Assembly: GCF_002250115.1 (NCBI RefSeq)
Contig: NZ_CP019985.1
Span: 3,472,001 to 3,536,000 of the forward strand
Length of the DNA: 64,000 nt
From: Shouchella clausii
Lineage (GTDB): Bacteria > Bacillota > Bacilli > Bacillales > Bacillaceae_D
Reading direction: 5' to 3'
The translations under genes and the position numbers were made by a program. Below the pieces are notes generated by a model, which worked only from the letters and a program-made list of their open reading frames with translations, ran no database searches and was not told the DNA's origin. Within the stretch, counting starts at the first letter, position 1; each line of letters begins with the position of its first letter. Shown piece by piece: positions 1,288 to 45,588 of the stretch.

Positions 1288-4200
1288 ATGAGCCAAGCGA
1301 AAGAGACGAGAAAAGAGCGCCTTCAACTATTGCTTGACCAGCTGCAAATTCCAGATGACGGCCGTTCCCATTTTCAAGACGGCTATATTGAAAAACTAGC
1401 AATCTCAAAAGAACAGAAAGTCTGGCATTTTTTCATTCGATTAGAACGGTTGCTGCCAGCCGAATGGTGCGAACTGTTTAGAGGGCGTCTCGCCCAGACG
1501 TTTCGAGAAATCGCCAATGCACGTTGCTCATTTGCATATGCCAACAGCGAGACGGATGAATCAGTATGGCGCAGCTATTGGCCTCTTATCGCCAACGAAT
1601 TGGCGCGTGTCTCTCCACCTCTTGCTGCTACGTTGCAAAAGCAAGCCCCGACAGTCAATGACAATAAGCTGTCTTTAGTAGCGCAAAACGAAGCGGAAGC
1701 AGAAGCGATAAGGCGAAAGCTTGCCGATCCGTTTAAAGACATATGCGGCCAGTTTGGCTTGCCTGTATTGCCCCTTGCAGTCGCCGTACAACAATCACAG
1801 GAAGCTTATGATGAATTTGTCCGCAAACGTGCTGAAGAAGACCGGTCAAAAGTGGTCGAAGCGATGTTGGAAAAACAACGGGTTGAAGAGGAAATGGCGA
1901 AGCAAGTAAAACAAGCCAACTTGTCTATGGGTTATCCCATTAAAGATGAGCCGACGCCGCTCGAAGCGATTGTCGATGAAGAACGGCGCATTACCATTCA
2001 AGGCTATGTGTTCGCAACAGATATTCGCGAGCTCCGCAGTGGGCGGACATTGCTAACCTTTAAAATGACAGATTACACCGATTCGATTTTAGTGAAAATG
2101 TTTTCCCGGGATAAAGAAGATGTGCCGGTTATGCAAGCGGTCAAAAAAGGCATGTGGTTAAAAGTGCGAGGCGGCATTCAAAACGATACATTTGTCCGCG
2201 ACCTCGTTATGATCGCCAATGATTTTAACCAAGTAACGCCAAATGTCCGCGAAGATACCGCTGAACAAAAACGAGTCGAACTTCATACCCATTCGACAAT
2301 GAGCCAAATGGATGGCGTCGTTTCTGTTGGCAGGTATATCGAGCAGGCTGCAAAATGGGGCCATCCAGCGATTGCCATTACGGATCACGGCGTTGTCCAA
2401 GCGTTTCCAGAAGCATATGGCGCTGCCAAAAAGCATGACATTAAAGTGATTTATGGCATGGAGGCAAATGTCGTTGATGATGGCGTACCAATTGCTTACA
2501 ACTCAGACCATCGTCACTTGCTCGAAGAAGAGTATGTCGTCTTTGACGTGGAAACGACCGGTCTGTCGGCTGTCTACAATACGATCATTGAGCTTGCTGC
2601 CGTCAAAATCAAAAACGGCGAAATCATCGATACATATGAATCGTTTGCAGACCCAAAAGAGCCTCTGTCAGCAACGATCATCGAATTGACAGGGATTACC
2701 GATGACATGGTCCAAGGCGCTCCTGAACCTGCTGAAGTGCTGAAGCAATTTCGTGAATTTGCCGGCGATGCCACGTTGGTTGCCCATAATGCGAGCTTTG
2801 ATATTGGCTTTTTGAATGTCGGTTATAAAAAACTAGGCTTTTCAGAAGTCACAAACCCAGTCATAGACACGTTGGAGCTTGGCCGTTTTCTGTACCCAGA
2901 ATTAAAAAACCACCGCCTTAATACGTTATGTAAGAAATTTGACATTGAGCTCGTCAGCCATCACCGCGCGATTTATGATACACAGGCAACGGCGTATTTG
3001 CTTTGGAAAATGGTCAAAGATGCAGCGGAGAAAGAAATTGTTTACCATGATGAATTAAATAACCATATGGGGCAAGGGAATTTTCACCGCCAACGGCCGT
3101 TCCACTGTACGCTGCTTGTCACATCGCAAACAGGGTTGAAAAATTTATACCAGCTCGTGTCCATGTCCCATGTTGATTACTATTTCCGGACGCCACGGAT
3201 CCCTCGTTCCCAGTTAAATAAACATCGCGAAGGGTTGCTAATCGGTTCTGCTTGCGATAAAGGTGAAGTCTTTGAAGGCATGATGCAAAAATCAGCCGAT
3301 GAGGTGGAGAAAATCGCTGGTTTCTACGACTTTTTAGAAATTCAACCGCTCAGCAATTATGGACACTTGATTGAACGGGAACTTGTAAAAGATGAAACGG
3401 CATTGCAAGAGATTGTCGCCAATATTGTTGCTCTTGGCGAGCGGCTAGGGCTGCCGGTTGTGGCCACAGGAAATGTTCATTATTTAAACGAGGAAGATGC
3501 GATTTACCGTAAAATATTAATTGCTTCCCAAGGGGGGGCCAATCCCCTTAATAAGCAGAAGTTGCCGGACGTCCATTTCCGGACAACAACGGAAATGCTT
3601 GAAGAGTTTTCCTTTCTTGGGGCAGAACAGGCAGAGAAAGTGGTTGTCGCTGCTTCTAATGACATTGCCGCACAAGTTGGTGATGTCCGGCCGATTCCAG
3701 ATGACTTATATGCTCCTAAAATTGAGGGCGCTGACGACGAAATCCGGAATATGAGCTATGAACGGGCCAAGATGATTTACGGCGATCCGTTGCCGGAACT
3801 TGTAGAAGCCCGTTTGCAAAAAGAGTTAAAAAGCATTATTGGCCATGGTTTTGCTGTTATTTATTTAATTTCCCATAAGTTAGTTAAAAAATCGCTCGAT
3901 GATGGCTACCTTGTTGGCTCACGGGGGTCTGTCGGTTCTTCGTTTGTGGCAACGATGACGGAAATTACCGAAGTGAACCCGCTGCCGCCTCATTATGTAT
4001 GCCCGTCATGCAAGCATTCCCATTTCTTTGATGACGGCTCTGTTGCGTCTGGCTATGACTTGCCTGATGCTGAATGCCCGAAATGCGGCAGTATGTATAT
4101 AAAAGATGGACAGGATATCCCGTTTGAAACGTTTCTTGGGTTTAAAGGCGACAAAGTGCCTGATATCGACTTGAACTTTTCAGGTGAATACCAGCCTCGC

Positions 4201-5580
4201 GCCCACGCCTATACAAAGGAATTGTTTGGCGAAGACTACGTGTACCGCGCCGGGACAATTGGCACGGTAGCGGATAAAACAGCATACGGCTATGTGAAAG
4301 GCTACCAAAGCGACCATGATTTGCTCATGCGTGGGGCAGAAATCGACCGTCTTGTCGCCGGCTGCACAGGCGTTAAACGGACAACAGGCCAGCACCCAGG
4401 TGGGATCATCGTTGTTCCCGATTATATGGATATTCATGATTTTTCGCCGATCCAATACCCGGCCGATGACAAAAATGCAGAGTGGAAAACGACACATTTT
4501 GACTTCCATTCGATTCATGATAATTTGCTTAAGCTCGACATTCTTGGACACGATGATCCGACGGCGATTCGCATGCTTCAAGATTTAAGTGGAATCGATC
4601 CAAAAACGATCCCGACGGATGACCCAGACGTGATGAAAATATTTGCTTCACCAGATGTGCTCGGTGTAACAGAAGAACAAATACTGTGCAAAACTGGTAC
4701 GCTCGGCATTCCTGAGTTTGGTACCCGTTTTGTTAGGCAAATGCTTGAGGAAACGAAACCGAGCACCTTTTCTGAGCTGTTGCAAATTTCCGGGCTCTCC
4801 CACGGGACTGATGTTTGGCTTGGCAATGCCAATGAGCTCATTTACAATGGCACTTGCGAACTGAAAGATGTCATTGGCTGCCGTGATGACATTATGGTTT
4901 ACTTAATTTACAAAGGGCTGGAATCGTCACTCGCTTTTAAAATCATGGAGTTTGTCCGTAAAGGCAAAGGCTTGCAGCCTGAATGGGTCGAAGAAATGAA
5001 AAAGCATGATGTGCCTGATTGGTACATCGATTCATGCACAAAAATCAAATACATGTTCCCGAAAGCACATGCGGCTGCCTATGTGTTAATGGCTGTGCGG
5101 ATTGCTTATTTTAAAGTGCATCATCCGATTTTGTATTATGCAACCTATTTTACAGTTCGTGCCGATGACTTTGAACTGGACATTATGATCAAAGGGGCAA
5201 GTTCGATTCGTGCCAAAATGGAAGAAATCAATGCGAAAGGGCTTGACGCTTCCCCGAAAGAGAAAGCTGTTTTGACGGTGCTCGAGCTCTCACTAGAAAT
5301 GTGCGAACGTGGCTTCGGTTTTCATAAAGTTGATTTATATAAATCATCGGCAACAGAGTTCATAGTCGATGGCGATAAGCTGTTGCCACCTTTTAACGCG
5401 CTGAACGGCGTCGGCACAAACGCAGCACTAAACATCGTCAAGGCCCGGGAAAATGGCCACTTTTTGTCAAAGGAAGACTTGCAGCAGCGGGCAAAACTGA
5501 CGAAAACGGTTGTCGAGAACTTGTCTGAACACGGCTGTCTAGAAGGTTTGCCAGAGTCTAACCAGCTATCATTGTTTTAA
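1288..5580 (+). CDS. polC: DNA polymerase III PolC-type alpha subunit with proofreading exonuclease
   Basis: Replicative DNA polymerase of low-GC Gram-positives. The 1430 residues show the PolC order: N-terminal region, OB-fold (about 230-315), PHP domain ([15 protein letters not shown], about 328), a DEDD 3'-5' exonuclease inserted in the PHP (VVFDVETTG, about 416), a zinc-binding CPSC...CPKC pair near 905-935, the palm acidic motif PDIDLNFS near 957, and a helix-hairpin-helix tail ending NQLSLF, which resembles a beta-clamp-binding peptide. The ATG at 1288 is chosen over the in-frame GTG at 1279 because AAGGAG lies seven bases before it. Confidence 0.97.
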
Positions 5581-5593
5581 AGACGGGCCTGCC

Positions 5594-5622
5594 TTGCAAG
5601 CGTAGTGCTTATGTGGTACAAT
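5594..5622 (+). promoter_or_regulatory. Sigma-A promoter of the rimP-nusA-infB operon
   Basis: TTGCAA at 5594-5599, a 17-base spacer and TACAAT at 5617-5622, with an extended TGG just before the -10. It lies about 160 bases before rimP and has no competing -10 nearby. Confidence 0.7.
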
Positions 5623-5656
5623 CATTTATGGTAATAGTTAGCATACGATGATGGAG

Positions 5657-5683
5657 AAAAGAGTGGGGGCCCCCACTCTTTTT
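5657..5683 (+). promoter_or_regulatory. Leader hairpin/attenuator upstream of rimP
   Basis: A near-perfect inverted repeat (AAAAGAGTGGGGG against CCCCCACTCTTTTT) starts about 35 bases after the -10 and ends in a T-run, so it has the form of an intrinsic terminator inside the leader. In B. subtilis NusA is reported to limit its own operon through a NusA-dependent leader terminator; the same role here is inference from position. Confidence 0.6.
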
Positions 5684-5780
5684 GTTCGCATTGCGGGTTC
5701 GGCGTTAAAAGCGTCTCCCGTTGTGTATGCCTGTTCTAGAAGCGGATACGTTTTTAATGATGTAAAGGAGGAATTGGCGA

Positions 5781-6251
5781 TTGAGTAAAAATGTTTCTCG
5801 TACCGTAGAACAACTCGCAGAGCCGATTGTCCGCGAACTTCATTTGGAACTCGTGGAAGTAGAATATAAAAAAGAAGGGCCTAATTGGTATTTGCGTGTG
5901 TTTATTGACGCAGACAAAGGGGTCAACTTAGATGATTGCGAAGCTGTGAGTGAAAAGCTGAGCGAAGTCTTAGATGATGTGGACCCGATTAAAGAGGCGT
6001 ATTTTCTAGAAGTGTCATCCCCTGGGGCAGAGCGGCCGCTAAAAAAAGAAGCGGATGTAAAAAAAGCAGTCGGCAAAGGTGTGTACGTGACAACGTATGA
6101 ACCAATCGACGGCCAAAAAGCGTTTGAAGGCGTCCTTGTATCATTTGAAGACGCCACGCTTGTTATTGAAGGAAAAAACAAAACAAGAACAGTGACCTAC
6201 ACCGTGCCATACGCGAAAGTGGCAAATGCGCGGCTGTCGATCCTGCTCTAG
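5781..6251 (+). CDS. rimP: Ribosome maturation factor RimP
   Basis: Cytoplasmic factor for 30S subunit maturation (YlxS in B. subtilis). The 156 residues have the two-part RimP form: an alpha/beta N-domain containing LELVEVEYKKEGPNWYLRVFID and LEVSSPGAERPL, then an SH3-like barrel ending ANARLSILL. The start is TTG at 5781, with AAAGGAGGAA about six bases before it. It is the first gene of the operon that continues into nusA 30 bases later. Confidence 0.95.
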   Translation: MSKNVSRTVEQLAEPIVRELHLELVEVEYKKEGPNWYLRVFIDADKGVNLDDCEAVSEKLSEVLDDVDPIKEAYFLEVSSPGAERPLKKEADVKKAVGKGVYVTTYEPIDGQKAFEGVLVSFEDATLVIEGKNKTRTVTYTVPYAKVANARLSILL

Positions 6252-6281
6252 TTGCAAGCGAAATAAGGGAGGTTCCTTTCC

Positions 6282-7388
6282 ATGAACAGCGAATTTATGG
6301 AAGCTTTGTCAACACTGGAAGCAGACAAAGGCATCAAAAAAGAAGTCATTATTGAAGCAATCGAAGCTGCGCTTATTTCTGGCTATAAGCGCAACTTCGG
6401 CCAAGCGCAAAACGTGCGCGTTGATGTGAATCGGGACAATGGCAGCATCCGCGTGTTTGCCCGCAAAGTAGTCGTGGAAGAAGTGTTTGATAAACGCTTG
6501 GAAATTTCAGAAGCGGAAGCACAGCGGATTAATCCACATTATGAAGTCGATGATATTGTCGAAATTGAAGTCACGCCAAAAGACTTTGGCCGAATTGCTG
6601 CACAAACGGCGAAGCAAGTAGTCACGCAACGTGTTCGTGAAGCAGAGCGGGGCATCATTTATTCTGATTTTATTGACCGTGAAGAAGATATTATGAACGG
6701 CATTGTCCAACGTCAAGACCATCGCTTTATTTACGTTGACTTAGGGAAAGTTGAGGCGCTTTTGCCTCTGTCCGAGCAAATGCCGAATGAAACGTACAAA
6801 CATAATGACCGCATCAAAGCATATATTACGAAAGTCGAAAAAACGACAAAAGGCCCGCAAATTTTAATTTCCCGCACGCATCCTGGGCTCTTAAAGCGTT
6901 TGTTTGAATTAGAAGTGCCGGAAATTTACGACGGCACAGTGGAAATTAAATCGGTATCTCGCGAGGCAGGGGACCGCTCGAAAATTGCCGTCCACTCCGA
7001 CAACCCTGAAGTCGATTCAGTCGGAGCCTGTGTAGGCCAACGGGGCCAACGGGTACAGACAATTGTCGACGAACTCAAAGGCGAAAAAATTGACATAGTT
7101 GAATGGTCAGAGGACCCAGTTGTTTATGTGGCCAATGCCCTAAGCCCGGCAAAAGTAATGAAAGTCAATGTGCTTGAAGGGGAAAAAATGACACAAGTCA
7201 TCGTCCCTGACTACCAGCTGTCTTTAGCAATCGGCAAACGAGGCCAAAACGCACGACTGGCTGCTAAGCTGACGGGCTGGAAAATTGATATAAAAAGCGA
7301 ATCAGAAGCCCGCGAGCTTGGCCTTCTTGATGAGGAAAATGAAAATGATGAGTTAGAAGAATTCACAAATGAGGAAAATGAACGTTAA
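6282..7388 (+). CDS. nusA: Transcription termination/antitermination factor NusA
   Basis: RNA polymerase-associated factor that promotes pausing and intrinsic termination. The 368 residues hold the N-terminal polymerase-binding domain (1-125), an S1 domain (about 135-200, [22 protein letters not shown]) and two KH domains ([19 protein letters not shown] and [19 protein letters not shown]). There are no C-terminal acidic repeats of the E. coli kind, as expected in Bacillus; instead it ends in a short Glu/Asn-rich tail. It may act on the hairpin at 5657-5683, giving autoregulation. Confidence 0.96.
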
Positions 7389-7409
7389 GAGCAGGAGGCG
7401 GAAAATCGC

Positions 7410-7685
7410 ATGAAACAACGGAAAGTACCGCTGAGAAAATGCATTGTAACCAATGAAATGAAACCAAAGCAAGAACTTGTGCGGATTGTACGCACACCTG
7501 AAGGCACAGTCGAATTGGATCCCACTGGCAAAAGGAATGGCCGCGGCGCTTATTTGACGAACAGTGAAGATGTGTTTCACACGGCTAAAAAGCGCGATAG
7601 CCTAACGCGCCATTTGCAAGTGCAAGTGACCGGAGACGACTATGACCGCTTGATTGCAGAGCGGGTGAAGGTGAAAAAACGGTGA
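7410..7685 (+). CDS. ylxR: YlxR/RnpM-family RNA-binding protein
   Basis: A 91-residue basic protein with the YlxR signature RKCIVTNEMKPKQELVRIVR and DPTGKRNGRGAYL. The B. subtilis relative has been described as a modulator of RNase P (RnpM); the role here is inferred from family and position. A strong site (GCAGGAGGCGG) precedes the ATG. Its stop overlaps the GTG start of the next gene by four bases, so the two are probably translationally coupled. Confidence 0.9.
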   Translation: MKQRKVPLRKCIVTNEMKPKQELVRIVRTPEGTVELDPTGKRNGRGAYLTNSEDVFHTAKKRDSLTRHLQVQVTGDDYDRLIAERVKVKKR

Positions 7686-21162: not shown

Positions 21163-22380
21163 ATGAAAATCATTATCCAGAAATTTGGCGGTACATCTGT
21201 AAAAACGGACGAATCGAGGCTGCAAGCGGTGCGCCATGTTCAAAAAGCAGTCAATGACGGCTACAAAGTTGTCGTTGTTGTCTCAGCGATGGGCCGAAAA
21301 GGCGATCCTTATGCAACCGATACGCTGCTTAGCCTCGTTAGCAAATCCCGCATCACGAAGCGGGAACAAGACTTGCTTGTTTCTTGCGGCGAGACGATTT
21401 CAGCGGTTGTATTTTCAGATCTCCTCAATGCACACGGCGTCCAAGCGACGGCCATGAACGGAGCGAAAGCAGGATTTCGTACAAACGAGGAGTTCGGCAA
21501 CGCGAAAATTAAAGAAATGAAATGCGAGCATTTGCTTAAAAAGCTAGAGACAGAAGATGTCGTCGTTGTTGCCGGTTTTCAAGGACAGTCGAAAAGCGGC
21601 GATGTAACGACGCTCGGCCGCGGTGCGAGCGATACATCGGCAACAGCTCTGGGCGCAGCTCTTCACGCGGAGTGGGTTGACATTTTTACTGATGTAGAAG
21701 GTGTTATGACCGCCGATCCTCGGATTGTCAGCGACGCGAGAGCATTGGAAGCCATGTCTTACAATGAAATTTGCAACATGGCGTACCAAGGCGCAAAAGT
21801 CATCCATCCGCGGGCGGTGGAAATTGCCATGCAAGCGAAAATTCCGATCCGGATTCGCTCCACTTACTCAGACAACGAGGGGACGCTCGTCACGGCCCTT
21901 GGCGCTTCCCATTCAATGGATGTAAACGAACGGATGATTACAGGAATTGCCCATGTGGCGAATGTGACGCAAATCAAAGTTGCTGCAAAAGAGGGCCAGC
22001 TTGACTTACAGGAAAATGTGTTTAAGTCGATGGCCCAAGCTAAGATTAGTGTAGACTTTATTAACATTAGCCCTAGTGGGGTGACCTATACTGTCAGTGA
22101 TGAGGCGGCAGATAAAGCAAAACAAGTGCTTGAGCGTCTTGGATACACGCCTGAGCTTCGGCGCGGGTGCGCGAAAGTGTCCGCTGTGGGAGCAGGAATG
22201 AGCGGTGTACCTGGCGTTGCTGCGAAAATTGTCAGCGCCTTAAGTGGAGAGAATGTACAAATTTTGCAATCGGCAGATTCCCATACAACGATTTGGGTAT
22301 TAGTCAAAAATGAAGATATGAAAAAGGCAGTGAATGCTCTGCACAAAATGTTTCAGCTCAGTGAAGCGACAACTGTGTAA
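21163..22380 (+). CDS. dapG: Aspartokinase I (monofunctional, diaminopimelate-type)
   Basis: Phosphorylates aspartate, 405 residues. KFGGTSV at the N-terminus, GRGASDTSATALG and DVEGVMTADPR are kinase-domain marks; two C-terminal ACT domains follow (VDFINISPSGVTYTV; GMSGVPGVAAKIVSALS). ATG 21163 gives the family N-terminus (MKIIIQKFGGTS); no strong site is visible, so it may depend on coupling to asd 11 bases upstream. Confidence 0.95.
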   Translation: MKIIIQKFGGTSVKTDESRLQAVRHVQKAVNDGYKVVVVVSAMGRKGDPYATDTLLSLVSKSRITKREQDLLVSCGETISAVVFSDLLNAHGVQATAMNGAKAGFRTNEEFGNAKIKEMKCEHLLKKLETEDVVVVAGFQGQSKSGDVTTLGRGASDTSATALGAALHAEWVDIFTDVEGVMTADPRIVSDARALEAMSYNEICNMAYQGAKVIHPRAVEIAMQAKIPIRIRSTYSDNEGTLVTALGASHSMDVNERMITGIAHVANVTQIKVAAKEGQLDLQENVFKSMAQAKISVDFINISPSGVTYTVSDEAADKAKQVLERLGYTPELRRGCAKVSAVGAGMSGVPGVAAKIVSALSGENVQILQSADSHTTIWVLVKNEDMKKAVNALHKMFQLSEATTV

Positions 22381-22405
22381 TTTCTTATAAACGGAGGGGG
22401 CGCAT

Positions 22406-23296
22406 GTGAAACCAACAGGAAAATACGGCCCAGTGTGGACAGCTATGGTAACGCCGTTTCAATCAACGGGCGCAATCGATTATCAGCAGGCAGAGCAGCT
22501 TATCGAGCATTTGATTGCAAACGGAACCGATGTCCTCATTGTAGCCGGGACAACCGGAGAATCACCGCTGCTGTCCAAAGAAGAAAAACTAGAGCTGTTC
22601 GCTTTTTGTGTCAAACAGGCCAACGGGCGTGCGGCCGTCGTAGCTGGCACAGGCTCCAATGATACGCATGCTTCGGTTGAGCTAACAAAGGCGGCGGAAA
22701 AGACAGGCGTCGACGGTGTCATGCTTGTCACTCCGTATTACAATAAACCGTCGCAACAAGGGCTTTTTTCCCATTTTAATGAAATTGCCAACGAGACAAA
22801 CTTGCCAGTCATGCTGTACAACGTTCCAGGCAGGACGGGAGTCAACCTTGAGGCGGAAACAACGATCGCCCTTGCGAATGTCAAAAATATCGTGGCGATT
22901 AAAGAAGCAAGTGGCAATTTGGAACAAATTGCGGCCATCATCGAGCATACGCCAGCCTCATTTGCTGTTTATAGCGGTGACGATAGCATGACGCTACCGA
23001 TTTTAGCGATTGGCGGAGATGGGATCGTTTCTGTTGCCTCCCATCTAATTGGCAAGGAAATGCAAGCGATGGTTGGCGCGTTTCAGGCAGGGGAAAATGC
23101 AAAAGCGGCAATGATGCACCGCAAGCTGTTGCCTGTCATGCAAGCTCTATTCCTAGCTCCAAATCCAGCGTGTGTAAAGTATGCGCTTAACAAAAGCGGC
23201 ATTGACGTTGGCGAAGTGAAACCCCCTCTTGCCCCTGTAAACGATCAGGAAAAAGTGGTGGTTGACCAGGCGCTGGCGAAAATCAAATCGCTATAA
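22406..23296 (+). CDS. dapA: 4-Hydroxy-tetrahydrodipicolinate synthase
   Basis: Condenses aspartate semialdehyde and pyruvate. The 296-residue TIM barrel has GTTGESPLL, the YYNKPSQQG segment with its catalytic Tyr nearby (LYNVPGRTG) and the Schiff-base Lys in AIKEASGN. GTG start behind ACGGAGGGGG. Its product feeds both lysine/peptidoglycan and, through SpoVFAB, spore dipicolinate. Confidence 0.96.
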   Translation: MKPTGKYGPVWTAMVTPFQSTGAIDYQQAEQLIEHLIANGTDVLIVAGTTGESPLLSKEEKLELFAFCVKQANGRAAVVAGTGSNDTHASVELTKAAEKTGVDGVMLVTPYYNKPSQQGLFSHFNEIANETNLPVMLYNVPGRTGVNLEAETTIALANVKNIVAIKEASGNLEQIAAIIEHTPASFAVYSGDDSMTLPILAIGGDGIVSVASHLIGKEMQAMVGAFQAGENAKAAMMHRKLLPVMQALFLAPNPACVKYALNKSGIDVGEVKPPLAPVNDQEKVVVDQALAKIKSL

Positions 23297-23312
23297 GCCT
23301 CATGTGAATGCT

Positions 23313-23404
23313 ACTGACGCTTGATGCCGAGATGCAAAACCGTATGAAGATGCATAAGCATATGCGGTGAGCAACGAAGAAAGCGAGCGTTTGTCTATCG
23401 TCTA
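23313..23404 (+). repeat. Terminator-abutting inverted-repeat element, diverged copy (D)
   Basis: Starts near ACTGACGCTTG and ends AGCGAGCGTTTGTCTATCG-TCTA. It shares the order ACGCTTG ... GAAGATGC ... CATATG ... GCGAGCGTTTGTCT with copies A and B but is shorter and more diverged. Its right end touches the dapA terminator stem. Confidence 0.55.
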
Positions 23405-39172: not shown

Positions 39173-39186
39173 CGAATAAATGTTCG
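39173..39186 (+). promoter_or_regulatory. LexA (SOS) box of recA
   Basis: CGAATAAATGTTCG differs by one base from the Bacillus LexA pattern CGAAC-N4-GTTCG. It lies ten bases before the recA -35, a usual position for repression. Confidence 0.7.
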
Positions 39187-39195
39187 TAAAAACTA

Positions 39196-39224
39196 TTGGC
39201 AAACGAAGCAAAACGCGTTATGAT
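39196..39224 (+). promoter_or_regulatory. Sigma-A promoter of recA
   Basis: TTGGCA, 17-base spacer, TATGAT at 39219-39224. Confidence 0.75.
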
Positions 39225-39303
39225 AGACTCATGCGAAGACTTACAACATTGTCCCTTACATGGATAACGATAGAAATGAGCGAATTGACAAGGAGAGATG
39301 AAA

Positions 39304-40356
39304 ATGAGTGATAGAAAACAAGCGCTTGACATGGCTTTACGCCATATTGAGAAACAATTTGGCAAAGGCTCTGTCATGAAGCTAGGTGAACAGGCTGAAC
39401 AGCGCGTATCGACGGTTTCAAGCGGTGCCCTCGCCCTTGATATTGCTTTGGGCGTAGGTGGCTATCCAAAAGGAAGAGTCATTGAAGTATATGGCCCAGA
39501 ATCTTCCGGTAAAACGACCGTTGCCCTCCATGCAATTGCTGAAGTGCAGCGCAATGGTGGCCAAGCTGCTTTTATTGATGCTGAGCATGCTCTTGATCCT
39601 GTCTATGCGAGCAAACTAGGCGTTAATATCGATGAGCTCTTGCTGTCCCAACCTGATACAGGCGAACAGGCACTTGAAATTGCGGAAGCACTTGTGCGCA
39701 GTGGTGCCCTTGATATAATTGTCATTGATAGTGTAGCTGCGCTCGTACCAAAAGCGGAAATTGAAGGGGAAATGGGCGACTCGCATGTCGGCTTGCAAGC
39801 ACGCTTAATGTCACAGGCGCTCCGGAAATTATCAGGAGCGATCAATAAGTCGAAAACGATTGCGATCTTCATCAACCAAATCCGTGAAAAAGTCGGCGTT
39901 ATGTTCGGCAATCCAGAAACGACGCCAGGGGGGCGCGCCCTTAAATTTTACTCGTCCGTCCGCTTGGAAGTGCGCCGTGCCGAGGCGTTGAAGCAAGGGA
40001 ATGAGATTGTCGGCAACCGCACTAAAATCAAAGTCGTCAAAAACAAAGTGGCTCCGCCTTTCCGTTTAGCGGAAGTTGACATTATGTACGGAGAAGGCAT
40101 TTCCAGGGAAGGTTCGATGCTTGACATTGCGGCGGAACTCGATATTGTCGAAAAAAGCGGTGCTTGGTATTCTTACAAAGGCGACCGCCTTGGGCAAGGC
40201 CGTGAAAATTCAAAACAATTTTTGAAAGAAAACCCGGAAATTACCGCCGAAATTGAGCGTTTGATTCGTGACCACCACGGGCTCGACGGGGAAGCGAAGC
40301 TGGAAGAGGCAGCTGAAGAACAAGCTTTTGAAGATGTGCCTTTAGATTTAAAATAA
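39304..40356 (+). CDS. recA: Recombinase RecA
   Basis: Strand-exchange protein and LexA co-protease, 350 residues. Walker [10 protein letters not shown] near 66, the [19 protein letters not shown] region with its DNA-binding loop 1, and [24 protein letters not shown] containing loop 2 are intact. The Glu-rich tail is typical. ATG 39304 lies seven bases after AGGAGA; ATG 39298 is too close to it. Confidence 0.98.
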
Positions 40357-40552
40357 AGAGAACAACATTGAGGCTCCCGAACAGAGTCCGCTGATAGACG
40401 CCCATACAAGAGGAGGAAAGATCTGGCCTGCGCCATGTTCTTTCCTCTGTATTTGAAAAACACGGGGTTTCAGCGGCAGCAACCGTTGAGGGGGCTTTTT
40501 TGATAGGAAAAAAAGAAGCAGTTTCACTTGCAAAAGGAGCCGACGGGATAAA
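40357..40552 (+). other. recA 3' region with two hairpins
   Basis: Holds a composite hairpin at 40413-40447 (outer GAGGAAAGA/TCTTTCCTC, inner TGGC/GCCA) and a GU-rich terminator-like hairpin at 40468-40500 (TTTCAGCGG/CCGTTGAGG, then GGGCTTTTTT). No sigma-A promoter for the next gene is clear, so the split-MR genes may depend on read-through from recA. Confidence 0.55.
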
Positions 40553-41545
40553 ATGGTCACGTTTTTATATTTTACCGATACCCATATCCGGGGGACAGCG
40601 CCTAAAAACCGTTTAGATGCGTTTCCAGAAACAATGAAACGAAAGTTGACAGAAATTATGGCTATTGCCAACCGTGAACAAGTGGATGTGCTTCTTCATG
40701 GTGGTGATGTTTTTGACAGGCCAGACTTATCGCCAAGCACAGTTGGCCAATTCGCACAAATTTTCCGGGAAGCTCCAGCGCCCATATACACGATTGCTGG
40801 GAACCATGATACATTTGGTCATAACCCGGAGACGGTGTCACGGACGATGCTTGGTCTCCTTGATGCGTTTGGCATTATGAAGCTCGTCCATCCTGGCAAG
40901 CCGATTTTGATTGAAAAAGCTGGTGTCCGCGTGCAAGTGTCCGGCCAGCCATACCATTATGAACTCGACCAGCGTGACCCTAAGCTAGACTATTATCCAA
41001 TTAATGAAACAGAAGCAGATACGATGATCCACCTCGTCCATAGCATGCTCGTCGAAAAAGCACTGCCTGACGGCATTCCTCATACGCTGATTGACCACAT
41101 TTGGGGGACGAGCGCCGACGTTATTTTGACAGGACATTACCATACTGGTTTTGGCATTAAAGAGCAAAACGGCAAATTTATTTGCAATCCAGGCGCAGTA
41201 GCGAGGATTAATAACCATTGGACAGAAGTAGAACGGCTGCCTAAAGTCATTATTGGTACTGTAACAAAAGAAGGCATAACGCTACGGGAAGAGACGCTGA
41301 CTGTCGCTCAAAAAGGGAGCGACGTGTTGGACAGGGCTTATGTGGAAAAAGCAAGCCACCAGGAAGAAAAACTTCACGCCTTTGTCCAGCAAGTGAGAGA
41401 GCAGGCGGATTTCCAAACGCTGCAAATGAGTGAAATCATTCGTGAGCTCGCCTCTATGCAAGGTGTCGAAGACAAAGTAAAACAGGAAGCACTAAGGCGG
41501 ATGACGATCGTGGAAGAGCGCTGGGAGCGTGATGAAACTGAATAA
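40553..41545 (+). CDS. Mre11/SbcD-like metallophosphoesterase of the split-MR module
   Basis: A 330-residue calcineurin-fold nuclease. Metal-binding motifs in order: DTHIRG (residue 9), GGDVFD (about 50), GNHD (about 82) and GHYHTG (about 200), as in SbcD/Mre11 and phage gp47 proteins. The C-terminal 70 residues are helical and charged and may dock on the ATPase. Its stop lies 14 bases inside the next gene. The nearest AAAGGAG is 13 bases from the ATG, longer than usual. Not present at this place in B. subtilis. Confidence 0.85.
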   Translation: MVTFLYFTDTHIRGTAPKNRLDAFPETMKRKLTEIMAIANREQVDVLLHGGDVFDRPDLSPSTVGQFAQIFREAPAPIYTIAGNHDTFGHNPETVSRTMLGLLDAFGIMKLVHPGKPILIEKAGVRVQVSGQPYHYELDQRDPKLDYYPINETEADTMIHLVHSMLVEKALPDGIPHTLIDHIWGTSADVILTGHYHTGFGIKEQNGKFICNPGAVARINNHWTEVERLPKVIIGTVTKEGITLREETLTVAQKGSDVLDRAYVEKASHQEEKLHAFVQQVREQADFQTLQMSEIIRELASMQGVEDKVKQEALRRMTIVEERWERDETE

Positions 41546-42968
41546 TATTGTAAGTGTCAGGCTTGAAAATTTCCAATCCCATTTAGATAGCACGCTGCAA
41601 TTTGACAAAGGCCTAAATGTGATCGTCGGCCAATCTGACAGCGGCAAGACCGCCATCTTGCGGGCAGTTCGTTGGGCATTGTTTAACCAGCCAAGGGGGA
41701 CGGATTTTATCCGTGTCGGTGCGGATTTTGTCCGTGTGACGATCACAATGGAGTCAGGACGTCTCATCATACGCGAGCGGACCAGCTCAAAAAATCGCTA
41801 CATCTTAAAAGAGCCGGGAGGACAAGACTTGGTGCTTGAAGGGTTTGGCAGCCAAGTGCCAGAAGAGGTGCTCCAAGCCCATGGCATGAGGTCGTTCCGG
41901 ATTGATGGCGATAATGAGTGGCATTTGCAAATTGCCCAGCAGTTAGACGGGCCCTTCTTGTTGGAAGCGCCAGGATCGCTGCGCGCGAAAACAATTGGCC
42001 GCATGAGCGGTGCCCACTATTTAGACATGGCGATCCGCGATGCCTCTAAAGATGTGTACGGACTCAGCCAACGAATCAAACAGAAACAAGGAGAAGTGGA
42101 GGAAGCCAAAACGGCGCTCGCCCCATTTGATGGGCTTGAGGCTGCGAAGACAAAACTGGACAAAGGCTTTGAAAAATTGCGGCTAGCCAAGGCTGCCCAG
42201 GATAGACTGGCGAAGCTCAAGCAATGGCATGCCCGTTACATAGAGCTGACAAGAGCAGAAGCAGAAGCCAACAAACAAAAAGCCAGTGTAGCCCAGCTAG
42301 CTGATTGGGAAGTTCGTTATGAACGGTTGTGTGCGCTGGCTGTTAAAAACAAGCGCCTGAGCCAGTTGGCGGAACAATGGGCACGGCTCGAAAAAGACAG
42401 CAGCACCTGCTCTTTATGGCTTTCAAAAACAGCGCAAGTGGACAGTGCTTATAGCCTTCACCAGGCGATACGAAACGAGGCAACTCGTTATGTGCGTCTG
42501 ACCACTCTTAAGCAGCAAAGCCAGGCAGTAAAGGACAATGAGCAAACATTGACAAAGGCAATGGCGCAAACAGCTTTTGTGCAAAGCCTAGACAGGAAGC
42601 AACTTGTACGAATGGAAGAGGAGAAAGCCAAAAAAGAACAGCTCGAAAAACTTGCCCGCCAGTGGCAGCAAACGCAGCAAGAATATACATCAGTGAAGGC
42701 CGCCAGTGCAGAATTGAAAGGGACAGATCAAGCAGCCCGGCAGTTAAACGAGGCGATTGAAACGACGAAGCTTTTAATGAAGTTAAACGATTATAAAAGA
42801 CAGTTAGCAGAAGTGACAAAGCGTGCTGCTGATGGACAAGCGTTTGTGAAAGAAAAGCTGGCTGAGGAAAAGCAGTTGAGCAATCGTTATACGGAAACAC
42901 TAAAAGCGCTTGGCATTTGCCCGACTTGTGGGCAAGCGATTAATCATGGAGGGGAGCATCACGAATGA
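41532..42968 (+). CDS. N-terminal half of a split Rad50/SbcC-like ATPase with zinc-hook motif
   Basis: A 478-residue protein: ABC-type N-lobe with Walker A GQSDSGKT (residues 33-40) and the following helix AILRAVRWALFN, then about 280 residues of coiled coil rich in Lys, Glu, Gln and Ala. It ends with CPTC (Cys463 and Cys466), a Rad50-type zinc hook only 12 residues from the stop. No signature motif or Walker B is present; these are in the gene at 43209. Overlaps its neighbours by 14 and 4 bases. Confidence 0.85.
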   Translation: MKLNNIVSVRLENFQSHLDSTLQFDKGLNVIVGQSDSGKTAILRAVRWALFNQPRGTDFIRVGADFVRVTITMESGRLIIRERTSSKNRYILKEPGGQDLVLEGFGSQVPEEVLQAHGMRSFRIDGDNEWHLQIAQQLDGPFLLEAPGSLRAKTIGRMSGAHYLDMAIRDASKDVYGLSQRIKQKQGEVEEAKTALAPFDGLEAAKTKLDKGFEKLRLAKAAQDRLAKLKQWHARYIELTRAEAEANKQKASVAQLADWEVRYERLCALAVKNKRLSQLAEQWARLEKDSSTCSLWLSKTAQVDSAYSLHQAIRNEATRYVRLTTLKQQSQAVKDNEQTLTKAMAQTAFVQSLDRKQLVRMEEEKAKKEQLEKLARQWQQTQQEYTSVKAASAELKGTDQAARQLNEAIETTKLLMKLNDYKRQLAEVTKRAADGQAFVKEKLAEEKQLSNRYTETLKALGICPTCGQAINHGGEHHE

Positions 42969-43219
42969 ACAGTGTAGAACAAGACTTGGAAAAAATGAAA
43001 CAAGCAATTGAAAAGGCGAAAGACGTTCGTTACCGGGCTGAAGCAAAGCTTGAAGAGTTAGAGAATCAAAAGCAACGGCTGTTAGTTGAATTAGAGGAAC
43101 TTGGCGTGAAGCCAGAGGAGCTCGACCAAGAGATTCAACGTTTAGAAGACAGCATTGCACGTTCCATGGATGAAGCATGGTCCCTTATTCCGAAGGAGCT
43201 TGTTAGCCGTGAGCAGTGA
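42965..43219 (+). CDS. Small coiled-coil protein of the split-MR module
   Basis: An 84-residue, almost entirely helical protein (heptad-like spacing of Leu/Ile from residue 5 to 70, many Glu/Lys/Gln). It starts in an ATGA overlap with the hook-bearing ATPase half and overlaps the C-terminal half by 11 bases. It has no catalytic motif. Its place between the two ATPase halves suggests it supplies part of the returning coiled-coil arm; that is inference. Confidence 0.75.
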   Translation: MNSVEQDLEKMKQAIEKAKDVRYRAEAKLEELENQKQRLLVELEELGVKPEELDQEIQRLEDSIARSMDEAWSLIPKELVSREQ

Positions 43220-43871
43220 ACGGGAGCTGGAGCAGTTAGAAAATGCTCTCCAGCAAGCGAGAGACCAATGGATGCGCCTTGATGAAAAGAAGCGGATGTT
43301 GCAAGAGCGACTTGAAGCGGCTGAAGCGGAACTTGTTCATATGGAAGACACGGTTGATACATATGAAAAGGCGCGCGTTCTTTTGCAACAATCAGCAGAA
43401 TATGCCAGGGAGCAAGCCAAACAACAAATGGAGACGTTAGTGACAAATGCGCTCCAGTACGTATTTGGGCCGCTTGTCTCCTTTGAAATCGAATTAGAAG
43501 AGCACGGCAACCGTGCAGTTGCGGACATGTACGTCATTTCTGATTACGAAGGCATTCGTGTGAAGACGAAGCCCCAAGACGCCAGAGGCGGAGGCGTCGT
43601 TGACATTGTGACGTTGGCGCTCCGCGTTGCTTTGATGGAAACGACACAGCCGCGTCAGGCAGGTCCGCTGTTGCTTGATGAACCGGGCAAGCATGTTTCA
43701 GGTGAGTATACGCATTACTTATATGAATTTTTAAAATCGCTGGCAACGATGTTTGGCCGGCAAATCATTATGATCACCCATAACCACCACTTAGCCGAAT
43801 CAGGCGACAAAGCCTTTTCAGTGGCCATTCGCGATGGGCTTAGCCAAATAGAAGACATTTCCAAACCTTGA
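43209..43871 (+). CDS. C-terminal half of a split Rad50/SbcC-like ATPase
   Basis: A 220-residue protein: N-terminal coiled coil (about 4-80), then the ABC C-lobe with a signature-like RGGGVVDIVTLALRVAL (Gly run at 127-129), Walker B LLLDEP (154-159) and the H-loop THNHH (190-194). It complements the N-lobe at 41532. GTG 43209 is preferred (site AAGGAG 11 bases before); the frame is open upstream. Its stop codon lies inside the -35 of the rny promoter. Confidence 0.85.
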   Translation: MSSERELEQLENALQQARDQWMRLDEKKRMLQERLEAAEAELVHMEDTVDTYEKARVLLQQSAEYAREQAKQQMETLVTNALQYVFGPLVSFEIELEEHGNRAVADMYVISDYEGIRVKTKPQDARGGGVVDIVTLALRVALMETTQPRQAGPLLLDEPGKHVSGEYTHYLYEFLKSLATMFGRQIIMITHNHHLAESGDKAFSVAIRDGLSQIEDISKP

Positions 43872-43896: not shown

Positions 43897-44010
43897 AAGA
43901 AATGATACAGTGTGTAAAAAAGGCTGTATTTTATGTAAGTTTGACCTGTAATTTAGCAAACGTGAATGAACCGTTAAAACCAACAATTGGATAGCAAGGG
44001 AGGTGAAACG

Positions 44011-45588
44011 ATGCCAAGTTATACGTTGAGTCTCTTGGTTCTCTGCCTCATTGTACTTGCTTTCTCTGTAGTTTTTGCAGTTGTTGGATATCTTGTTCGA
44101 AAATCAGTCGCTGAAGCGAAAATATCAAGTGCGGAACACGCAGCAAAGCAAATGATTGATGACGCCAAGCGCGAAGCAGAAACGAATAAAAAAGAAGCGA
44201 TTTTGGAAGTGAAAGACGAAGTCCATAAGCTTCGCAGTGATGCCGAGCGTGAGGTTCGTGAGCGAAGAAATGAGATTCAGAAACAAGAGCATCGTTTGGT
44301 CCAAAAAGAAGAGATTCTCGACCGCAAAAGCGAAACTCTCGATAAAAAAGAAGAATCGTTAGAAAAACGGGAGGAATCTCTCGCCAAAAAACAACGACAA
44401 GTTGAAGAGATGGAAAGTAAAATGAGCCAGTTGCTTGTTGAGCAGAAACAGGAACTGGAACGAGTATCTGGATTGTCACGGGAAGAAGCCCGAATGATCA
44501 TCCGACAAGAGGTTGAACAAGAAATTGCCCATGAAACGGCTCTTTTGATTAAAGAAAAAACAGCCGAGGCAAAAGAAACAGCAGATAAACGCTCGAAAGA
44601 AATTTTGTCTCTTGCCATTCAGCGTTGCTCCGCTGACCACGTGGCCGAGACGACGGTCTCTGTTGTCAATTTGCCTAATGATGAAATGAAAGGGCGCATT
44701 ATCGGCCGTGAAGGGCGGAATATTCGCGCGTTAGAAACGTTGACGGGGATCGATTTAATTATTGATGATACGCCGGAAGCGGTCATTTTATCAGGATTTG
44801 ATCCAATTCGTCGCGAGATTGCCCGTTCAGCTCTGGAGAAACTTGTCCAAGACGGACGGATTCATCCCGCCCGGATTGAAGAAATGGTGGATAAATCGCG
44901 GCGCGAGGTCGATGAAACGATTCGTGAGTACGGCGAGCAGACGACATTTGAAGTCGGCGTGCACGGTCTACACCCTGATCTAATTAAGATTTTGGGCAGG
45001 CTGCGCTTCCGTACAAGCTATGGCCAAAATGTCTTAAAGCACTCGATGGAAGTAGCCCATCTAGCAGGGATTATGGCGGCAGAGCTTGGCGAAGACGTGA
45101 AGCTAGCAAAACGGGCAGGCCTTTTGCATGATATCGGCAAGGCGATTGACCATGAAGTTGAAGGCAGCCATGTGGAAATTGGCGTCGAACTTGCGACAAA
45201 ATATAAGGAACATCCTGTTGTCATTAATGCAATTGCTTCGCATCATGGCGACACCGAGTCCACGTCGATTATTTCGACGCTTGTCGCTGCCGCTGATGCA
45301 TTATCAGCTGCTCGTCCCGGCGCAAGACGGGAAACACTTGAAACGTATATACGCCGCCTTGAAAAGCTCGAGGAGATTTCCGAGTCGTTTGATGGCGTGG
45401 AAAAAACGTTTGCCATTCAAGCGGGGCGTGAAGTGCGGATCATGGTTCGGCCAGATGTCGTCGACGATGCATTGGCCCATAAACTAGCGCGTGACATCAC
45501 GAAAAAAATTGAGCAAGAGCTCGATTACCCAGGTCATATTCGAGTGACTGTCATTCGCGAAACACGTGCTGTGGAATACGCAAAATAA
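44011..45588 (+). CDS. rny: Ribonuclease Y
   Basis: Membrane-anchored endoribonuclease that starts mRNA decay. The 525 residues have one N-terminal membrane helix (about 5-27), a long coiled coil (about 30-205), a KH domain ([16 protein letters not shown]) and an HD domain with [13 protein letters not shown] 44011 follows AAGGGAGGTG; a longer frame has no site. ricA, an RNase Y partner gene, lies 4 kb downstream. Confidence 0.97.

Follow-up and report, generated by a model that had tools for sequence, protein, structure and literature searches.

A Mre11-Rad50-like module with a divided Rad50 between recA and rny in Shouchella clausii and other Firmicutes

The Mre11-Rad50 complex, usually made of two proteins, is among the most conserved of DNA-repair machines, and its hook loop, which connects the two strands of the arm, is regarded as central to the tethering of DNA ends. 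This report concerns a module of four genes, designated MRE, NH, CC and CH, in a stretch of 64,000 nucleotides from Shouchella clausii (contig NZ_CP019985.1, positions 3,472,001 to 3,536,000). This whole stretch is called the window, and coordinates are given in its numbering unless another record is named. The first gene encodes a Mre11-type nuclease, and the other three encode parts of a Rad50-like ATPase whose chain is divided at a motif resembling the zinc hook.

The locus and its genes

The features of the module are as follows.

40553-41545, + strand: MRE, an SbcD/Mre11-type phosphoesterase of 330 residues
41532-42968, + strand: NH, the Rad50 N-half of 478 residues, with an N-lobe with Walker A, a long helical arm and a hook-like end
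41628-41651, + strand: Walker A motif GQSDSGKT of NH
42918-42935, + strand: zinc-hook-like motif CPTCGQ at the C-terminus of NH
42965-43219, + strand: CC, a coil-turn-coil protein of 84 residues
43209-43871, + strand: CH, the Rad50 C-half of 220 residues, with an arm helix of 85 residues followed by the C-lobe
43584-43595, + strand: RGGG, the signature-type loop of CH, where SbcC has LSGGE
43668-43700, + strand: LLLDEPGKHVS, Walker B and D-loop of CH, with Ser for the D-loop Asp
40468-40491, + strand: terminator-like stem-loop, by consensus match only, in the gap between recA and MRE

Consecutive genes overlap by 14 (MRE/NH), 4 (NH/CC) and 11 bases (CC/CH). An earlier reading of the window from its sequence alone (the sequence-only reading) had proposed four genes with these coordinates and overlaps, making up a split Mre11/Rad50 module; analysis of the open reading frames (ORFs) bears out the former, and matches of the two halves to the N- and C-lobes of Rad50 bear out the latter. 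The hook-like motif at the end of NH was not part of that reading. The start of NH was taken as the ATG at 41532, the listed ORF opening one codon earlier at a GTG (41529). The start of CH was taken as the GTG at 43209 because homologues begin near this position; the longest frame opens at a TTG at 43155. A purine-rich stretch resembling a ribosome-binding site lies just 5′ of all four gene starts.

In comparison with three close relatives, the ratio of non-synonymous to synonymous substitution rates (dN/dS) is low: 0.031-0.051 for MRE, 0.11-0.14 for NH, 0.045-0.063 for CC and 0.013-0.038 for CH. The sequence-only reading had allowed for a sequencing error that joins one reading frame. Sequencing error and pseudogene formation are both ruled out by the low dN/dS and by the gene arrangement: 36/36 genomes of the family set (35 relatives and the window) have NH, CC and CH as three separate ORFs, with an unchanged order and locus. 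By the same count the single chain that characterizes canonical SbcC is absent.

NH and the cut at the zinc hook

In profile searches NH matches the AAA_15, AAA_23 and Rad50 models (2.9e-20 for Rad50), and its N-lobe is that of Rad50, including Walker A and the Q-loop. A profile search of this kind had been suggested by the sequence-only reading: against a profile of nine canonical SbcC proteins, residues 22-475 of NH align with SbcC 19-528 (E 4.2e-13), with CPTCG falling on the hook CPVCG, and phage families match NH, CC and CH (see below). Where canonical SbcC frames are complete, their hook lies in mid-chain, near residue 525 of about 1035. NH ends in ...GICPTCGQAINHGGEHHE, with 16 residues from the first Cys of CPTCGQ to the end of the chain. 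Because NH stops a few residues past a CPxCG aligned to the hook of SbcC, the Rad50 chain is seen to be cut at the hook.

This position is conserved. CPxCG lies within 32 residues of the NH end in all 36 family genomes, and 87 of 91 host copies of NH have CxxC within 45 residues of the C-terminus; of the remaining four, three are frame-broken with the motif in the next ORF and one has CxxC at 48. Viral copies agree (74/74 complete distinct copies from 86 loci, after removal of 8 truncated and 4 duplicate ones), compared with 52/728 other ORFs of at least 300 residues in the same viral sequences that have CxxC near the C-terminus. Both the motif and the alignment with SbcC place a CxxC hook motif at the distal tip of the arm, as expected of the Mre11-Rad50 superfamily. 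The end of NH would, to judge from its sequence, bind zinc as a hook.

CC, CH and the ATP site

The family matches of CC are mostly of coil type, and among 28 aligned copies G47, V48, P50, I75 and P76 are invariant. It is proposed that CC is the missing segment of the descending arm. CH gives weak to moderate matches to models of the Rad50 C-lobe; its fold is that of this lobe, and both Walker B and the H-loop are present. Structures of the catalytic domain of Pyrococcus furiosus Rad50 are among the best structural matches of both NH and CH.

The signature and D-loop of CH depart from those of canonical SbcC, which has LSGGE and an LD D-loop. LSGGE was found in 23 of 30 loci from the canonical search, where some of the 30 are two loci of one gene and the 7 loci without it were cut, unmatched or weak. 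CH lacks this combination: 90/91 host copies have RGGG as their signature-type loop and 1/91 has DGGG, and Ser replaces the D-loop Asp in 90/91. Viral copies have Ser (36/61) or Arg (16/61) at the first RGGG column (R126). An ungapped alignment with P. furiosus Rad50 sets G127, not R126, on the signature serine. Whether this serine has become Arg or Gly depends on a one-residue shift in alignment register. In P. furiosus Rad50, S793R is reported to prevent both the binding of ATP and the dimerisation that depends on it (PMC7247530, PMC7049730), so the clamp may work differently in the split module.

These changes could be taken to mean that the module is a split remnant of SbcC which no longer works as a Rad50, its halves acting separately or serving only as DNA tethers. 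The altered signature and D-loop fit such a remnant, as does the Ser-to-Arg change in one of the two registers (compare S793R, PMC7247530), and the tethering of DNA ends reportedly persists with the yeast equivalent of S793R (PMC7049730). However, nearly every copy of the module retains the Walker A Lys, the Walker B Asp-Glu and the H-loop His, and also, apart from three fused forms, the Q-loop Gln; dN/dS is low; and natural fusions described below rejoin the parts. We regard a remnant as very improbable.

The nuclease

MRE matches Metallophos (9.3e-14), the calcineurin-type phosphoesterases, and in host copies the motifs DxH, GDxxD, GNHD and GHxH of the Mre11-Rad50/SbcCD superfamily are present. 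The residues corresponding to the nuclease site (D9, H11, D52, N84, H85, H163, H195 and H197) are kept in 88-91 of 91 host copies. Against the SbcD model TIGR00619, MRE scores 34.8 bits, below the curated cut-off of 77.65. The last 60 or so residues are conserved and perhaps correspond to the Rad50-binding helices.

Conservation and genomic context

The module is flanked by recA (39298-40356) upstream and rny (43987-45588) downstream, all on the + strand. In the family set the order cinA-cshA-recA-MRE-NH-CC-CH-rny-ymdB-spoVS is kept as far as the retrieved stretches reach (the locus of G020 stops at a contig end before recA). CH was found in 36/36 family genomes, and MRE is intact in 35/36, being frame-broken in G006. 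Among 24 genomes of the same order outside the family, CH gave one weak match only (3.0e-5, G050). According to the sequence-only reading, B. subtilis has recA directly before the pbpX/rny region and lacks the module.

The same arrangement extends beyond the family. A survey of the interval between recA and rny, which the sequence-only reading had put forward as a check, covered 80 of 111 relatives in named Firmicutes genomes: all four genes are present in 80/80, recA lies directly upstream in 75/80, rny downstream in 64/80, and both flank the module in 63/80. Thermoactinomycetaceae, Salsuginibacillus and Fuchsiella are among the bearers. The Peptoniphilus loci have recA and no rny downstream, and three loci clustering with them in the tree described below (L317, L319 and L320) have both flanks. 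No recA lies near the module in Desulfotomaculum, Carboxydocella, Carboxydothermus and Tumebacillus, and one locus (L123) ends at a contig end. Nine of 12 other loci, from a phylum-wide sample, have neither flank, including three fusions into one ORF. In even samples of the class and the phylum, CH occurs in 50/398 and 65/398 genomes, respectively. The sequence-only reading took the module for a local insertion between recA and rny; its occurrence at the same locus in all family genomes and in other Firmicutes families speaks against this.

The promoter-like site that precedes rny lies partly within the end of CH (consensus match only). Upstream of recA (39173-39224) there is a LexA-like box with one mismatch and a sigma-70-like promoter; such boxes match at chance level across the window. 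With one mismatch allowed, no LexA-like box was found near MRE, the three matches in the whole window being the number expected by chance. No Rfam family reached its gathering score between 36000 and 50000.

Relation to canonical SbcCD

A full-length SbcC frame is present in 4/36 family genomes, with weak partial matches in two more (G002 and G019), and SbcC matches at 1e-10 occur in 21 of the 24 same-order genomes outside the family. SbcD above the cut-off occurs in the same 4/36, compared with 20 of the 24. The window genome has no full-length SbcC and one weak partial match (E 2.7e-4), and its sole SbcD-like match at 1e-5 is MRE itself. In this family the module mostly takes the place of SbcCD. 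Three other genomes of the order (G050, G057 and G059) have no SbcC at 1e-10, no SbcD above the cut-off and no strong match to the split module.

The two wider samples agree. With module-bearing defined as a CH match at 1e-15, and with tallies cross-read by eye on the assumption that both searches drew the same 398 genomes per sample, SbcD occurs in 4/50 module-bearing genomes (G014, G093, G231 and G248) against 283/348 others in the class, and in 2/65 (G544 and G821) against 158/333 in the phylum. The corresponding Fisher p-values are 8e-25 and 1e-13, uncorrected for kinship.

A role in defence against foreign DNA was suggested by the sequence-only reading. Such a module would be a PtuA-, Lamassu- or Gabija-like pairing of an ATPase with a nuclease, and PADLOC does return LmuB (5.8e-15, NH), AriA, PtuA, GajA and others, which have the ABC (ATP-binding cassette) ATPase fold in common. 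However, these matches are weak and spread over several ATPase families, whereas Rad50 models and structures outscore them for NH (2.9e-20) and lead for CH. Further, the module is core to the family, mostly recA-linked and not patchy there; its context is that of housekeeping genes, it and SbcD nearly exclude each other, and it is also found in phages. A defence function is therefore highly unlikely.

Phages, plasmids and natural fusions

NH, CC and CH match three separate phage families in PHROGs: 16465 (6.4e-68), 18563 (3.1e-7) and phrog_15167 (9.4e-62), listed as exonuclease, unknown function and ATPase, respectively. In Bacillus phage vB_BboS-125 (L001) NH, CC and CH are annotated, and MRE is an unannotated ORF; this MRE-type ORF lies at about 22285-23400 of the phage record, in the gp36-gp37 interval, a stretch without an annotated coding sequence. 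The same phage has an AP2-domain gene (gp33, 7407-7979 of L001) between NH and CC, as an inserted mobile endonuclease might be placed. The viral set comprised 80 of 99 viral-contig relatives of NH, and many of these contigs end near NH; MRE was found in 65/80, CH in 55/80, CC by profile in 14/80, and MRE, NH and CH together in 54/80.

No single ORF matching both NH and CH was found in the 83 viral loci scanned. In three viral contigs (L172, L173 and L175) MRE and NH are fused and CH is a separate gene; in L175 (a contig of 218,948 bases; region 3597-7630) the fusion has CC and CH as separate genes nearby. For Bacillus phage 0305phi8-36 a Mre11/Rad50 fusion is reported that showed no sign of one P-loop NTPase segment (PMC3175470), and the arrangement in L175 may explain this. 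A deep viral clade with a short NH (about 350 residues) has 37 tips; after two near-duplicates were left out, 33/35 loci have a coil-rich ORF of 74-100 residues just before CH, so that CC looks like a standing part here also, by position and make-up more than by profile score. On the + strand of these loci such ORFs total 43, a frequency of about 0.05 for each stretch of this length.

In one family, three genomes (G492, G739 and G800) encode MRE together with both lobes, N and C, in a single ORF of about 700 residues that has neither CxxC nor CC. From these one-protein fusions it can be argued that the pieces work together.

In a midpoint-rooted tree of 149 loci the recA-linked copies form one group, beside other Firmicutes copies and the fused forms, and most phage copies fall outside this group; the root is arbitrary. 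The copies L310 and L313, from the two genomes (G544 and G821, respectively) which also have SbcD, are placed among the viral copies, with MRE after CH, and are possibly prophage copies. Nine plasmid records, from Paenibacillus, Bacillus velezensis, Geobacillus and Brevibacillus among others, contain a relative of CH, 30-44% identical, whose annotation is hypothetical protein or ParA.

The sequence-only reading named a phage recombination cassette as a possible source. That phages carry the same split genes upholds part of this, and since the chromosomal copies are nested among phage copies under an arbitrary midpoint root, a phage origin is possible. A cassette captured recently beside recA, with no essential host role, would agree with both observations, but not with the same locus in 36 family genomes and other families, recA and rny as direct neighbours, purifying selection and the anticorrelation with SbcD, and we consider it improbable; an ancient capture is possible. 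The module has the look of a core replacement of SbcCD, linked in most cases to recA, and not of a recent phage insertion or a defence island.

A proposed mechanism and its significance

It is likely that the module codes for a Mre11-Rad50 complex of four subunits, similar to SbcCD, which replaces SbcCD in most of the family. Its most likely role is the ATP-gated processing of DNA ends. The sequence analysis establishes the protein families, the active-site motifs, where the chain is cut, the order of the genes and its conservation, the anticorrelation with SbcD and the natural fusions; assembly, stoichiometry, gating, nuclease activity and substrate we infer. The N-lobe and the rising arm would come from NH; CH would contribute the C-lobe and the lowest part of the descending arm, and CC would add another piece of the arm. 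One ABC ATPase head would arise from the pairing of NH with CH, and two heads clamped by ATP would control a dimer of MRE docked at the base of the heads. Working beside RecA, this dimer could then cut at hairpins, at DNA ends or at ends blocked by protein. As the hook lies at the free C-terminus of NH, two complexes could clasp each other by two chain ends, not by loops.

Several observations weigh against this interpretation. With respect to the proteins, the single-chain fold model of NH is poor (predicted template-modelling score, pTM, 0.32), and fold prediction covered single chains. The match of CC to the SbcC arm is weak (hhalign E 2.7e-4) and could be that of a generic coil, and the arms are unequal, with about 280 mostly helical residues in NH (178-459) against 84 in CC and 85 in CH. 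The match of CH to the canonical SbcC profile is also weak (hhalign E 0.021, probability 2%). As the signature loop and D-loop are unlike those of canonical Rad50, the ATP cycle may differ; the Q-loop column is Glu in the three fused forms; and viral MRE has Asp in the H195 column in 24/62 copies and Gln in the N84 column in 13/62. With respect to replacement, SbcCD and the module coexist in 4/36 family genomes, kinship among the genomes makes the Fisher p-values look stronger than they are, and G057 and G059, which lack both systems, imply that SbcCD can be lost without this replacement.

A broader interpretation, offered tentatively and judged doubtful, is that the module represents an ancient, separate lineage of Mre11-Rad50. 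In such a lineage the arm would be permanently cut at the hook, which would be made from two free chain ends; the joining of N- and C-halves would be regulated; the ATP clamp, with its altered signature loop, would be different; end processing would be coupled to recA in large parts of the Firmicutes; and the module would move between phages and hosts.

A natural Rad50 cut at the hook offers a direct way to ask what an unbroken hook is for. The split module would also explain how most of the sampled family members, and many other Firmicutes, cope without detectable SbcCD. Finally, three separately listed phage families are linked into one proposed complex.

Comparison with known systems

No earlier description of a split Rad50 or SbcC was recognized in the literature searched, most subscription papers being outside its reach. 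None occurs in the accessible parts of a survey of bacterial recombination (PMC1193525), a paper on jumbo phages (PMC7824862) or PMC3175470, nor is one described in those of PMC3814617 or PMC6375668. The available passages of the last-named of the first three [see Yoshida et al. 2011, PMC3175470] concern Mre11/Rad50 fusions, not a split Rad50, and mention no separate C-half gene; fusions of MRE with the ATPase exist beside the split module. The families 16465, 18563 and 15167 of PHROGs are separate, as are NH, CC and CH, and the listing draws no link among them.

Phage T4 gp46/gp47 and other phage SbcCD are phage-encoded Mre11-Rad50 systems, like the viral module, and their Rad50 is a single chain. 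The lobes of P. furiosus Rad50 were divided for crystallography by laboratory design. In the crystals 1ii8, 1f2t, 1f2u and 3qkr the N- and C-lobes are separate chains, as in the module; these constructs are without most of the arms, whereas the split in the module is natural and falls at the hook.

The closest comparison is with SbcCD of Bacillus and E. coli, in which, as in the module, a gene for a Mre11-type nuclease is followed by one for the ATPase. MRE is shorter (about 330 residues, compared with open frames of about 375-440 for most canonical SbcD matches). SbcC and the module have in common the order of N-lobe, arm, CPxCG hook, arm and C-lobe, together with Walker A, Walker B and the H-loop. 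Unlike SbcC, the Rad50 of the module has RGGG for LSGGE and Ser for the D-loop Asp, carries its hook at a free C-terminus, and consists of three proteins, cut at the hook and again in the descending arm.

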